64,000 bases of DNA. Source: an uncultured Bacteroidales bacterium (GTDB lineage: Bacteria > Bacteroidota > Bacteroidia > Bacteroidales > P3). Of this stretch, positions 43,084-45,821 are shown in pieces. The stretch covers positions 60,309-124,308 of the forward strand of contig ONBB01000003.1 of assembly GCA_900315935.1 (NCBI GenBank). The letters are read 5' to 3'. Both the position numbers and the translations under genes were made by a program. Numbering within the stretch: position 1 is the stretch's first letter; each line of letters opens with the position of its first letter. The notes beneath the pieces were generated by a model. That model did no database searches, had not been told where the DNA came from, and saw only the letters and a program-made list of their open reading frames with translations.

Positions 43084-44862
43084 TCAGTCGTCGACGACGA
43101 AGGACAAGCCCAGCGACAGCTTGTCCAGTGTGCAGCGGTATCCTTGGGAGAAGGGGTGGCCGAGGAGGCCTTTCTGATAGGTGGCGTGGAACATGACCCC
43201 ATCCAGGTGCAGGCTCAGGCCCAGGTTGAGCGAGAGGTTGAAGCGGTTGATGAAGCCCTCGCCGTAGTCCACCTCCTGGCTGGGCATGTAGGAGTCGTCC
43301 CAATCGGTAACTTTGGCCAAGCAGCTGAAGTCGGCTCCAAGGCCAGCGCGCAGGTGCAGCGCGCTCTCCCTTCCGAAGGGCAGGTAGAGCACCATCTCCA
43401 GCGGCACATGCAGGTTGAACTCATAGTAGTTGTCGTAGTAGCCGCTGGGTGCGTTCTCCCATTTGTCGAAGAGCATCTCTAGGTAGAAGCCCGAGTTCAT
43501 GCCGATGATTTCTTTCTTCTCCATCGGGTTGAAGTGCATGCCTATCTGGAACCCCTTGCTCCAACCCTCTTCGCCGAATACGTCGGCGTAGCCCGTCTCG
43601 CCGCTGACGGCGTCGCGCGCGTAGATGGCGCGCTGGATGTAGGCGAAGTGGACGCCGTAGTCCACCCCGTCGTAGTACCACGGCCACCGGCCGTACTTGC
43701 TGCTTGATGTAGTGGAGACCATGGTGGTGTTCTTTTGCGGTGTACCTTCCTGTTCATTGATGTGTTTTTCGGCCTCAACCAAATAAGTTTCTATAGAAGA
43801 TTGCACGTAATCCGATAGTTCATTTTTTTTTGCCTTGGCTGCATTGAACCATTTTACTGCCTGCTTGTAATCCTTCCTCACTCCAACGCCATAGTAGTAG
43901 CAGACGCCGAGCATGTATTGCCCCCTGGCATACCCTTGGTTCGCTGACTGGGTGTACCAGTACACCGCCTGCTCGTAGTCCTTTTCAACGCCATTGCCTT
44001 GGTGATAGCAACCGCCGAGTTCGTCCTGCGCCTCGGCGTCCCCCATGTTCGCTGCCTGCGTGTAGAGTTCGACGGCTTTCTGCAGGTTCTTGGTCACCCC
44101 ATTGCGCCCGTAGCGGTAGTTTTCAGCCTGGGTAAGTAGCTCCGCTGCCGAGACTTGGGGCTTGGCTACAGAGGTGGTCGTGGTTGACGTTGATTGCGTA
44201 GTGGAGGTCGTGGTTGGCGTAGTGGTGCGTGGTGCAGTGGTGCTGGTGGGGTCGGCGGGCTTTTGGGGAGTGCAATCCGACGTTGCAATAAGGAACATAT
44301 TTAGAAAGTTTCCATCTGACAACTCGTCTCGCTTCTTTTCTGCCTGCAAAAACCAGTATCGTGCCGCGCCACAATCCTTCTCCACGCCCTCGCCCCTATA
44401 GTAGCGGATGCCGAGGTTGTACTGCGCATTGGCAAACCCCTGGTTGGCCGCCTTGGTGTACCAGTACACCGCCTGCTTGTAGTCCTGCGCCACGCCCTTG
44501 CCGTGATCGTAGCAGACGCCGAGGAAGAACTGCGCCGCGACATCCCCCTGGTTTGCCGCCTTGGTCCACCAGTACACCGCCTGCTTGTCGTCCTGCGCCA
44601 CACCCTTGCCTTTATCGTAGCAGACGCCGAGGTTGTACTGCGCCGCGGCATACCCCTGGTTGGCCGCCTTGGTGTACCAGTACACCGCCTGCTTGTAATC
44701 CTGCGCCACACCTATGCCATAATGGTAGCAGACGCCGAGGTTGTACTGCGCCACTTTATTTCCACGCTCAGCGGCGGTGCGGTAGTCGGAGGCTTTCTGC
44801 CCCCAGAGGGGTGCGGCGAGGAGGGCGAGGAGGATCAGGAGTAACGTTTTCTTCATATTCAT
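43084..44862 (-). CDS. Sel1-repeat protein fused to a C-terminal beta-barrel
   Basis: A 592-residue exported protein. The signal peptide is MNMKKTLLLILLALLAAPLW-GQ. Residues about 25-175 hold four Sel1 repeats of 36 residues (units of the type YNLGVCYDKGKGVAQDDKQA). A Thr/Pro/Ser linker (about 199-232) is followed by about three more repeats (235-345), then a Ser/Thr stretch and a C-terminal domain (about 390-592) of amphipathic strands (VHFAYIQRAIYARD, FNLSLNLGLSLHLDGVMFH) typical of Bacteroidota outer-membrane barrels. Sel1 repeats bind proteins; here they would be periplasmic and tethered to the barrel. A second ATG two codons downstream is possible. Confidence 0.82.
   Translation of the reverse strand: MNMKKTLLLILLALLAAPLWGQKASDYRTAAERGNKVAQYNLGVCYHYGIGVAQDYKQAVYWYTKAANQGYAAAQYNLGVCYDKGKGVAQDDKQAVYWWTKAANQGDVAAQFFLGVCYDHGKGVAQDYKQAVYWYTKAANQGFANAQYNLGIRYYRGEGVEKDCGAARYWFLQAEKKRDELSDGNFLNMFLIATSDCTPQKPADPTSTTAPRTTTPTTTSTTQSTSTTTTSVAKPQVSAAELLTQAENYRYGRNGVTKNLQKAVELYTQAANMGDAEAQDELGGCYHQGNGVEKDYEQAVYWYTQSANQGYARGQYMLGVCYYYGVGVRKDYKQAVKWFNAAKAKKNELSDYVQSSIETYLVEAEKHINEQEGTPQKNTTMVSTTSSSKYGRWPWYYDGVDYGVHFAYIQRAIYARDAVSGETGYADVFGEEGWSKGFQIGMHFNPMEKKEIIGMNSGFYLEMLFDKWENAPSGYYDNYYEFNLHVPLEMVLYLPFGRESALHLRAGLGADFSCLAKVTDWDDSYMPSQEVDYGEGFINRFNLSLNLGLSLHLDGVMFHATYQKGLLGHPFSQGYRCTLDKLSLGLSFVVDD
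44411..44756 (-). repeat. 108-bp tandem repeat encoding Sel1 units
   Basis: The segment starting CCTTGG at 44451 recurs at 44559 and 44667, an exact 108-bp spacing (36 codons), with high nucleotide identity between units. Recent in-frame duplication is the simplest explanation. Confidence 0.85.
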
Positions 44863-44900
44863 ATTATATATATTGCCGCCCGCCGCACCCCACGGGCAGA

Positions 44901-45120
44901 TACAATAAAAGAAGCGTGGCGCTGATATACCACGTCTCCTAATAGAGGTCGTAGGATTACCTTAGAGTGAAGATGCAGCCAAACAGCCCACGCATAAACA
45001 GCGCGAACCGTCACACTTGCCTGCACTCTTTTAGAAAGTTCCTACGTTTCTATTAGCAGAACGAGCATAACGCTTCGTTATTTAATTCACTTTCGGCAGC
45101 GGCCACCAGCGGGCCGAAAC
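44901..45120 (-). ncRNA. candidate structured small RNA (about 220 nt)
   Basis: A 363-nt gap without a gene contains, on the minus strand, a strong promoter (45158-45127), a 5' hairpin TTTCGGC/GCCGAAA, a hairpin ATAACG/CGTTAT, then a long imperfect stem: 45056-45040 pairs with 44956-44939 (CTAATAGA and CGTAGGA arms), continuing after an internal loop with AGAGTG/CACTCT and GCAG/CTGC. It ends with ACGTGG/CCACGC (44935-44914) followed by TTCTTTTATT, an intrinsic terminator. A long bulged hairpin of this size recalls 6S RNA, but this is only a shape argument. The Sel1 gene lies 39 nt downstream, so a long regulatory leader is the alternative. Confidence 0.6.
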
Positions 45121-45126
45121 CAAGTG

Positions 45127-45158
45127 CAAAAGTACGAACTTTTTCCCACACGGCCAAA
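45127..45158 (-). promoter_or_regulatory. Bacteroidota promoter for the candidate small RNA
   Basis: On the minus strand TTTG (45158-45155), 20 nt, then TACTTTTG (45134-45127), a full match to the consensus. Predicted transcription start is about 45120. Confidence 0.8.
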
Positions 45159-45164
45159 TATTTT

Positions 45165-45195
45165 TTTGCCAATCCAATTATTTGTATTACTTTTG
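45165..45195 (+). promoter_or_regulatory. Bacteroidota promoter for the toxin-antitoxin operon
   Basis: TTTG at 45165-45168, 19 nt, then TACTTTTG at 45188-45195. It is divergent from the small-RNA promoter, with the two -33 elements only 6 nt apart. The antitoxin ATG is 30 nt downstream. Confidence 0.8.
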
Positions 45196-45209
45196 CAATC
45201 AGAAGTAAT
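45186..45209 (+). promoter_or_regulatory. probable antitoxin operator
   Basis: ATTACTT (45186-45192) and AAGTAAT (45203-45209) form a perfect 7-bp inverted repeat that spans the -7 element and start site. Antitoxins of this class repress their own promoter, so this is the expected place for the operator. Confidence 0.5.
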
Positions 45210-45225
45210 CATTAATAATACAACT

Positions 45226-45552
45226 ATGGCAACCGCAATCGAAAGAAAATCACCAATTCAAGAGAGCGAGAGCAACGAAGCTTGCTTCGCTGCCGAGCCG
45301 AAGAATTGTGTGCGAAAGCAAGCCTCTTTCCGTCTCCGTGCCGATTTGCTGGAACGGCTGAAGCGCAACGCAACCCGCGAGAACCGCACCCTCAACAACT
45401 ATGTGGAAAGCGTGCTGCTCGACATCGTCTACCACGAACCCAACGCCGAGACCCGCGCCGCCATCGAGGAGGCAATGAATCGCAAAGAGTACCCGGCAGG
45501 AGAGCTCTACTATAGCGTAGAAGAACTCTTTAAAGCTTTAGATGCCGAATGA
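45226..45552 (+). CDS. antitoxin with ribbon-helix-helix-like domain
   Basis: A 108-residue protein. The ATG at 45226 is used because the promoter lies upstream at 45165-45195; the longer frame from 45124 would be untranscribed. The segment KQASFRLRADLLERLKRNAT (about residues 34-53) followed by NRTLNNYVESVLLDIVY fits a ribbon-helix-helix DNA-binding fold. The acidic C-terminus (EEAMNRKEYPAGELYYSVEELFKALDAE in pieces; about 81-108) resembles the toxin-wrapping tail of other antitoxins. Its stop overlaps the toxin ATG (ATGA at 45549). Confidence 0.85.
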   Translation: MATAIERKSPIQESESNEACFAAEPKNCVRKQASFRLRADLLERLKRNATRENRTLNNYVESVLLDIVYHEPNAETRAAIEEAMNRKEYPAGELYYSVEELFKALDAE

Positions 45553-45821
45553 AGATACTTTTTCCTTCCAGCCGCTACAAAAAAGACTATAAGCGATACC
45601 GTAACAATCCCAGGAAAAAGGCCGCTTTGCAAGTCGTGCTTGACATGCTGGCCAACGAGCAGCCTATCCCCAAGGAGTACAGGCCCCATATGCTGCAGGG
45701 CAACTACAAAGGCTGCATGGAGTGCCACATCGAGGGCGACTTCCTGCTGATATGGGTGGACGAGGAGCGCAACATCATCGAGCTGGTCCGCCTCGGCTCC
45801 CACGCCGAACTGTTCGGATGA
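45549..45821 (+). CDS. YafQ-family toxin (RelE superfamily mRNA interferase)
   Basis: A 90-residue protein: MKILFPSSRYKKDYKRYRN at the start, then PHMLQGNYKGCMECHIEGDF and LVRLGSHAELFG. These match the YafQ residues H50, H63, D67 and H87 (here His at PHM, ECHI, the Asp of GDF, and SHAELF), so the active site looks intact. YafQ cleaves mRNA in the ribosomal A site. It is translationally coupled to the antitoxin gene. A transcription stop was not found before the R1 repeat at 45847. Confidence 0.9.
   Translation: MKILFPSSRYKKDYKRYRNNPRKKAALQVVLDMLANEQPIPKEYRPHMLQGNYKGCMECHIEGDFLLIWVDEERNIIELVRLGSHAELFG

Follow-up and report, generated by a model that had tools for sequence, protein, structure and literature searches.

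A candidate pseudoknotted leader RNA family lying between promoters and diverse genes in Bacteroidia

The locus in the window

The window, the 64,000-nucleotide stretch of Bacteroidales DNA that was analysed, contains a structured RNA at 44901..45158. The leader occupies the minus strand between a gene for a Sel1-repeat protein (43084-44862) and divergent plus-strand genes, and its features are collected in Table 1. Pfam Sel1 was matched at E 2e-72 in a 491 aa portion of the 592-aa downstream protein. The −33 and −7 boxes at 45158-45126 (−) form a Bacteroidota-type promoter, and transcription would start at about 45120 on the minus strand. The structure of the leader runs on to 15 nt before the Sel1 start codon. 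On the other side of the locus, the divergent gene pair at 45227-45821 (+) has its own TAnnTTTGC-type promoter and looks by eye like an antitoxin/YafQ-like toxin pair.

Table 1. Features of the leader locus, in window positions
Feature	Position	Strand	Partner or detail	Basis
Promoter −33 element TTTG	45155..45158	−	20 nt spacer to −7 element	sequence
Promoter −7 element TACTTTTGC	45126..45134	−		sequence
P0, 5′-terminal hairpin	45095..45121 (45123-45093 in shorter-span fold)	−		folding energy
Leader RNA conserved core, helices P1-P5	44906..45077	−		covariance model R1, 161.4 bits
P1 5′ strand, GAAGCGU (45076-45070) and UAUGCU (45069-45064)	45064..45076	−	pairs with 44917-44911 and 44931-44926	
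P1 3′ strand, GGUAUA ... ACGCUUC	44911..44931	−	internal loop UCAGCGCC at 44925-44918	
P2 5′ strand	45049..45056	−	pairs with 44946-44939	
P3 5′ strand	45040..45046	−	pairs with 44956-44950	
P4 5′ strand, GAGUG	45024..45028	−	pairs with 44969-44965	
P5 5′ strand, apical hairpin rich in G-U pairs	45002..45011	−	pairs with 44992-44983	
P6 hairpin, GCCCG/CGGGC	44878..44897	−	loop GGUGC, 44889-44885	
Pseudoknot, P6 loop with P1 internal loop	44889-44885 with 44922-44918	−	GGUGC with GCGCC	
Alternative terminator-like hairpin	44915..44934	−	competes with P1	terminator search and nested fold
Sel1-repeat protein gene under the leader, 592 aa, signal-like N-terminus	43084..44862	−	start 44862 or 44856	

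The minus strand folds more stably than dinucleotide shuffles, with z −4.0 for 44890-45124 and z −5.1 for the whole leader at 44840-45121, none of 200 shuffles being as good in either case. The plus-strand fold is weaker than the minus, at z −2.8. In relatives, the segment from the −7 box to the core, which corresponds to P0, folds with a mean z of −2.6 (n=136); P0 is predicted from folding energy.

The consensus promoter proposed in the initial annotation is present on the minus strand, with the boxes and spacer of Table 1. Its two 5′ hairpins were recovered in part: a 5′ hairpin folds, but as one compound hairpin and not clearly as two. The long bulged stem that it described, 45056-45040 with 44956-44939, was found at exactly those coordinates, while P1, the 3′ hairpin P6 (44897-44878) and the P1-P6 pseudoknot were absent from that reading.

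Fold of the leader RNA

A nucleotide search with 235 nt gave matches in 29 of 61 genomes, with five in the window's genome including the window copy, and 24 of these matches were used to build the covariance model R1. Alignment A5 comprises 100 matches from 100 chosen sources (98 distinct sequences); the fitting of these to R1 biases its counts towards the R1 structure. It holds 94.9% standard pairs, compared with 89.8% in shuffles, and 223 cells changed on both sides, compared with 72; stem covariation in related genomes was one of the checks proposed in the initial annotation. None of 500 shuffles reached the value of A5 on any of the five measures used; in slid controls 39-48% of cells were paired. 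The unfitted alignment A1 recovered these helices too, 13 of its 38 pairs being changed on both sides.

Among the 98 sequences, the two parts of P1 had 99.3% and 91.7% of cells paired, mostly invariant or with changes on one side. In P2, where four pairs were modelled, 97.7% of cells were paired and three pairs showed changes on both sides. P3 was 99.4% paired with both-side changes in five of eight pairs, and alternates among CGUAGGAA/UUCCUACG, CGUGAGAA/UUCUCACG and CCUGAGAA/UUCUCAGG. The two modelled helices of P5 were 97.6% and 87.9% paired, with mostly one-sided changes. Covariation thus lies mostly in P2 and P3; it says little on P1 and P5, because these are nearly invariant or changed on one side.

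P4 and P6 are absent from R1 and were assessed by swapping partners between loci. The P4 stem score was 17.0 for native partners and 11.6 (sd 0.2) for partners swapped among 137 loci, these being the loci with anchors found. For P6 the scores were 13.1 native and 9.7 (sd 0.2) swapped, in 108 loci chosen because the loop pairing was present. The pairing of the P6 loop with the P1 internal loop scored 14.9 native and 12.4 (sd 0.2) swapped in 187 distinct of 200 loci, and includes CAGUUCC/GGAACUG, CAGUGCC/GGCACUG, CAGAGCC/GGCUCUG and CAGUACC/GGUACUG. At least five contiguous pairs were present in 174 of 186 distinct loci, and in 153 the partner was 23-36 nt past the loop. The small helix 7 of R1 cannot coexist with P4 as a nested structure and was excluded from the structure model.

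Paired cells in the 98 sequences comprised 621 G-U and 63 A-C, which indicates that the minus strand is the folding strand. This G-U bias by itself is also compatible with folded single-stranded DNA.

Distribution and gene context

In the genus draw, R1 matched 108 of 119 genomes at E<=1e-3 and 89 of 119 at E<=1e-10, with up to 11 matches per genome. In the order draw, 112 of 393 genomes, in 67 of 206 genera, matched at E<=1e-3 and 89 of 393 at E<=1e-10. The phylum draw gave 15 of 296 genomes at E<=1e-4. These were the window's own genome, one more from its order, and 13 spread over other orders of its class, in which the best E-values ran from 2e-13 to 3e-7. These large draws scored few candidates per genome, and absence in them is weak evidence. 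A few of the weakest genus- and order-draw matches could be opposite-strand self-complementarity. Opposite-strand R1 matches were rejected as such and are absent from A5, which used a stricter E-value. The main set of 199 loci represents 194 distinct cores, a few places having been fetched twice.

A pattern scan of one genome for each of 84,980 species found at least 119 stretches. All those listed are from Bacteroidota, including Bacteroides, Phocaeicola, Parabacteroides, Prevotella, Alistipes, Butyricimonas, Barnesiella, Muribaculum and many ruminant MAGs; cultured carriers include Bacteroides gallinarum DSM 18171 and Bacteroides xylanisolvens XB1A. The same kind of scan found three copies on viral contigs; in both sets the pattern fixed part of P1 and the loop, and the pattern bases are conserved by choice. 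Three phage records were matched, two of them only in part, and none is annotated.

The leader belongs to an unclassified RNA family with no match in Rfam 15. The Infernal search against Rfam that the initial annotation had suggested, 6S and 6S-Flavo included, was run, and its result together with the strong covariation bears out the suggestion of an unlisted family. At the gathering cut-off only tRNAs were found in the window and a single tRNA in 20 loci of the order, and nine loci of other orders gave no match at E<=0.01. Relaxing the threshold at the window locus likewise brought up no relevant family. The initial annotation had also noted a likeness to 6S RNA, and in outline the long irregular hairpin does resemble RF00013 and 6S-Flavo (RF01685). 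Neither model matched at E<=10 in 44800-45260 or at E<=1 in the whole genome; of 14 control genomes RF00013 was found in six, and RF01685 in one and over its cut-off in none, so that the RF01685 negative is weak. Unlike 6S RNA, the leader is multi-copy, carries the P1-P6 pseudoknot and is mostly followed by an ORF, with different genes after different copies. The 6S identity was rejected on the lack of a model match, the number of matches per genome and the downstream ORFs described below. Bacteroides is reported to have its own 6S RNA with product RNAs (PMC7366714).

The leader also resembles the FopS/GibS family, a multi-copy Bacteroides sRNA family with its own promoters (PMC11697453). That paper describes FopS as a trans-acting sRNA with a single-stranded 5′ stretch and a terminator hairpin, and states that it was deposited in Rfam. 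Membership was rejected on this description, which sets FopS apart from the several long helices and pseudoknot of the leader. Among the 3161 candidates of Fremin and Bhatt 2021 (PMC8040213), HMP2_4205 is described as 132 bp, palindromic, mostly from Bacteroidetes and near TPR genes. A fragment of the leader family might be among those candidates. The leader RNA was not found in searches of an open-access literature library, nor in passages of PMC2864571, PMC11109978, PMC8040213, PMC7366714, PMC11697453 and PMC13370916.

Of 185 distinct loci, 167 have a TAnnTTTG −7 box ahead of the core, where 13 would be expected from shuffles, and 74 of the 167 also have a TTG-type −33 element at about the same spacing. 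Downstream, an ATG opening an ORF of at least 60 aa lies 30-90 nt from the core in 171 of 199 loci, the control counts being 35 of 193 for the divergent side and 191 of 995 for random places. The spacing from core to ATG is 38-56 nt in 116 of the 199 and 63-81 nt in 53, and the ATG is a median 25 nt past the P6 pairing loop (5th-95th percentile 16-52, n=140). A TAnnTTTG box was found between core and ATG in only 7 of 184 leaders. With none in the other 177, the gene seems to depend on the promoter of the leader.

The window's genome has six strong copies, each followed 3-56 nt on by its own longest ORF; two of these ORFs encode Sel1 proteins, and the other four products are 131, 402, 180 and 153 aa long. 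At a greater distance, a methylase-like gene and a gene for a leucine-rich surface protein lie behind two further matches that are divergent and partial; gene names other than Sel1 were assigned by eye.

Taken together, the copies seem to form a multi-copy RNA family of many Bacteroidia, several per genome and mostly between a promoter and different genes, which probably controls how the downstream genes are read. That the RNA is a cis-acting leader in Bacteroidales is very likely. A leader of the Sel1 gene had been one of the alternatives in the initial annotation, and the ORF at a short constrained distance in most copies speaks for it.

The genes under the leader are diverse. The 199 downstream ORFs fell into 113 clusters, mostly unrelated, the largest having 28 members. 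In Pfam searches of two sets (A3 and A4), no family among those listed matched more than three proteins of either set, so the largest cluster lacks a common Pfam name. PADLOC and NCBIfam were searched with set A4 only, which comprises 103 of 180 aligned proteins, and the best 25 families of each were listed. The Pfam and NCBIfam matches are scattered, and each PADLOC family listed was matched by one protein. (The alignment of 180 of the 199 proteins left out eight shorter than 60 aa and others with the same first 60 residues.) Among the families listed in these searches no common pathway was seen. Simple heuristics, with no control set, assigned a hydrophobic N-terminal segment to 141 of 191 downstream proteins and a lipobox-like motif to 44.

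The commonest downstream family (alignment A6, e.g. L078:1722-2285) consists of proteins of about 190-240 aa with a signal-like N-terminus and the motif VTKFLGIPVDG ... YDNEYNxANGEDL; its member L089 had no Pfam, NCBIfam or PADLOC match. The RNA is directly upstream of only six of 13 genes of this family, with one more at 512 nt, and all six places were already R1 matches in the order draw. These 13 are from 15 protein-match loci, L248 and L249 each containing another piece of a gene already counted in L240 or L246. The regulon looks broad and accessory. Such breadth is more like that of second-messenger riboswitches than of biosynthetic ones, and the absence of a shared downstream pathway is unusual for a metabolite riboswitch.

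Models of leader function and mobile copies

Comparison of the copies shows a P2-P5 domain closed by P1, a pairing of the P6 loop with the P1 internal loop, and a start codon at a constrained distance. Of the features of the riboswitch kind, conserved structure with covariation was found. Comparison among loci put most copies ahead of a gene, mostly with no second promoter between, as for a putative co-transcribed leader. We favour, with moderate confidence, a riboswitch-like cis-regulatory leader and its promoter acting as one unit. A putative effector, either a small molecule or a protein, would bind the P2-P5 domain, in which the unpaired bases flanking P3 hardly vary, and binding would stabilise P1 and the P1-P6 pseudoknot. 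Because P6 is close to the start codon (15 nt in the window copy), stabilisation of the pseudoknot would gate translation initiation of the following gene. In this way one signal could control several unrelated accessory and envelope genes per cell. Leader position, a pseudoknotted domain, covarying helices, conserved unpaired bases and multiple copies are shared with orphan riboswitch candidates; the leader differs from these in having no evident gene theme, a promoter within the conserved unit and no Rfam match.

Occlusion of the ribosome-binding site by nested structure had no effect in an accessibility test and was rejected. In 70 leaders drawn at random from the distinct ones that have an ORF, predicted start-region accessibility was 0.472 native and 0.476 shuffled (35 of 70 higher, t −0.6), as calculated for nested structure only, pseudoknots lying outside the model. 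This result, that the non-pseudoknotted fold does not open the start region, counts against the riboswitch-like reading and also against an expression leader that works constitutively, in which the 5′ hairpin and pseudoknot protect the mRNA and aid Shine-Dalgarno-independent initiation with no sensing. Such a leader would account for the joint occurrence of promoter and leader, the constrained ATG spacing, downstream genes with nothing evident in common and copies before the cargo genes of mobile elements. However, the inner unpaired bases and the P1 sequence are strongly conserved, suggesting specific recognition, and we regard the constitutive leader as unlikely.

The riboswitch-like reading may include a step at the 3′ strand of P1, which can instead form the terminator-like hairpin of Table 1. 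A terminator search found this hairpin with a U-rich tail once in the window copy, against an average of 0.4 in shuffles. When the leader is folded as a whole, its nested minimum-energy structure contains this hairpin rather than P1, which counts against the riboswitch-like reading. A terminator with a U-rich tail, as put forward in the initial annotation, is thus present in the window copy but poorly kept in Bacteroidales. Among 98 Bacteroidales sequences the hairpin GUGG/CCAC shows no compensating change; all four pairs are intact in 73, and one or more are lost in 25. A T6 tract occurs in 9 of 184 leaders with an ORF, and 31 of 199 loci of the main set have five or more consecutive T where the core ends. 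The discrete transcript of about 220 nt that was predicted to end at this terminator is at odds with both the uncompensated hairpin and the rarity of T6.

U tracts are common in other orders. The phylum draw provided 19 distinct copies, 18 of them from other orders and L224 from Bacteroidales, and 14 of the 19 have the run of T at the core end, compared with the 31 of 199 above. An ORF of at least 60 aa begins 38-52 nt past the core in eight of the 19, and in L211-L213 the P1-P6 loop pairing can be seen by eye. The remaining 11 lack an ORF of 60 aa in the first 130 nt, and this finding weighs most heavily against a translational role for every copy. These copies (L214-L219, the same as L230-L235, L221, L223, L225, L227 and L228) mostly have T runs, and several copies distant from an ORF have a divergent HTH gene, with a TonB-dependent receptor, FecR or sigma-factor gene further down. 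In other orders the element may be an attenuator or a free RNA. Since T runs are common there, attenuation at the P1 3′ strand was kept as a possible step: where a U tract follows, as in many other-order copies and weakly in the window copy, it may be the switch or an added one.

The same observations bear on a free-standing regulatory RNA, 6S-like or another trans-acting sRNA, that ends at the terminator-like hairpin and has only incidental neighbours. The terminator-like site of the window copy, its preference in the nested fold, the T runs in 14 of 19 phylum-draw copies and the 11 of 19 lacking a near ORF would all fit it. Against it, the structure extends beyond the supposed terminator, T6 is rare, no 6S model matched, genomes hold several copies, and 171 of 199 loci have an ORF at constrained spacing, so that this reading appears quite improbable to us.

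Copies of the module are also found on mobile elements. Seven plasmid records had matches, the same seven being returned by searches with two other copies. Six of the seven were examined, two of these having no annotation of the stretch. In three of the four annotated plasmids the next CDS is 15, 46 or 48 nt past the core, and in the fourth 375 nt. The three close CDSs encode a DUF4433 protein, a class A beta-lactamase located behind a mobV gene, and a protein annotated as hypothetical. In the Bacteroidales plasmids L258-L260, L262 and L208, the module lies near primase/toprim/MobV modules and before changing cargo genes. The plasmids were compared over 3.4 kb before and 2.5 kb after the RNA. 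L208 and L260 have 3.6 kb in common at 83%, ending at the end of the RNA core, with different cargo beyond it. Similarity among L208, L258 and L259 is about 94% over a segment that opens about 50-70 nt ahead of the core and closes with the core itself, with adjoining flanks that do not align; L208 and L258 have common cargo further on, and L208 and L259 a common 769-bp stretch far upstream. On these few records, the patterns fit homologous exchange through the promoter-leader module.

An element acting at the DNA level, such as a recombination site or MITE-like repeat, which folds by chance, could likewise give similarity confined to about −70 through the core end, or cut off there when the cargo changes, and the dispersed copies would suit this as well. 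Yet promoter and ATG spacing are conserved in one orientation and the internal sequence is strongly conserved, making such an element highly improbable. Integron attC-like sites have an integrase nearby, cassette arrays and a folded structure of little sequence conservation; in the leader family the inner sequence is strongly conserved and the copies are mostly on different contigs.

A more speculative idea, to which we give little weight, is a portable promoter-RNA module, old in Bacteroidia, that docks a Shine-Dalgarno-blind ribosome via P1-P6 and provides host-independent, conditionally gated expression of any gene that follows it, similar to an IRES. Being alike and dispersed, the copies would in addition let chromosomes and mobile elements trade single cargo genes at the module.

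Bacteroidia are dominant in many guts and rumens, and to our knowledge few of their leader RNAs are understood. A pseudoknotted leader before surface, lipoprotein, defence-like and orphan genes would point to a shared signal and a hidden regulon. The leader may also give a handle on how translation starts in Bacteroidia without Shine-Dalgarno pairing, and it seems to mark sites of cargo exchange by mobile elements.

A second, small H-type pseudoknot, GUUG-N5-GAC-ACGUAUUA-N4, was observed directly before the ATG in 29 of 199 leaders by regular expression (e.g. L119, L003, L054 and L057), and many leaders with the 63-81 nt spacing hold it. Its stem 2 covaries by eye (CCC/GGG, CUC/GAG, ACAC/GUGU), and one example had no relevant Rfam match. 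A strict pattern occurred at 13 places in 10 of 41 genomes, and the reversed pattern at none. Three of the 13 loci had a strong R1 match and a fourth a weak one, indicating that the small pseudoknot also occurs without the large RNA. A variant, CUGAUGAGCCGACAGGAUAAAACGGC (the L045-like form), lies just before the ATG in, for example, L010, L027 and L045, and could by eye form a like pseudoknot. The small pseudoknot is also present in L264-L276 at about 1501-1525. Upstream of it in L267, L268 and L274 is a recurrent structured-looking leader, GUUUGGCGAUACCU ... CCUCAUGCC plus a U-rich stretch ... GUUGGAGGGUCGG, which looks like a separate RNA family of the same genus.
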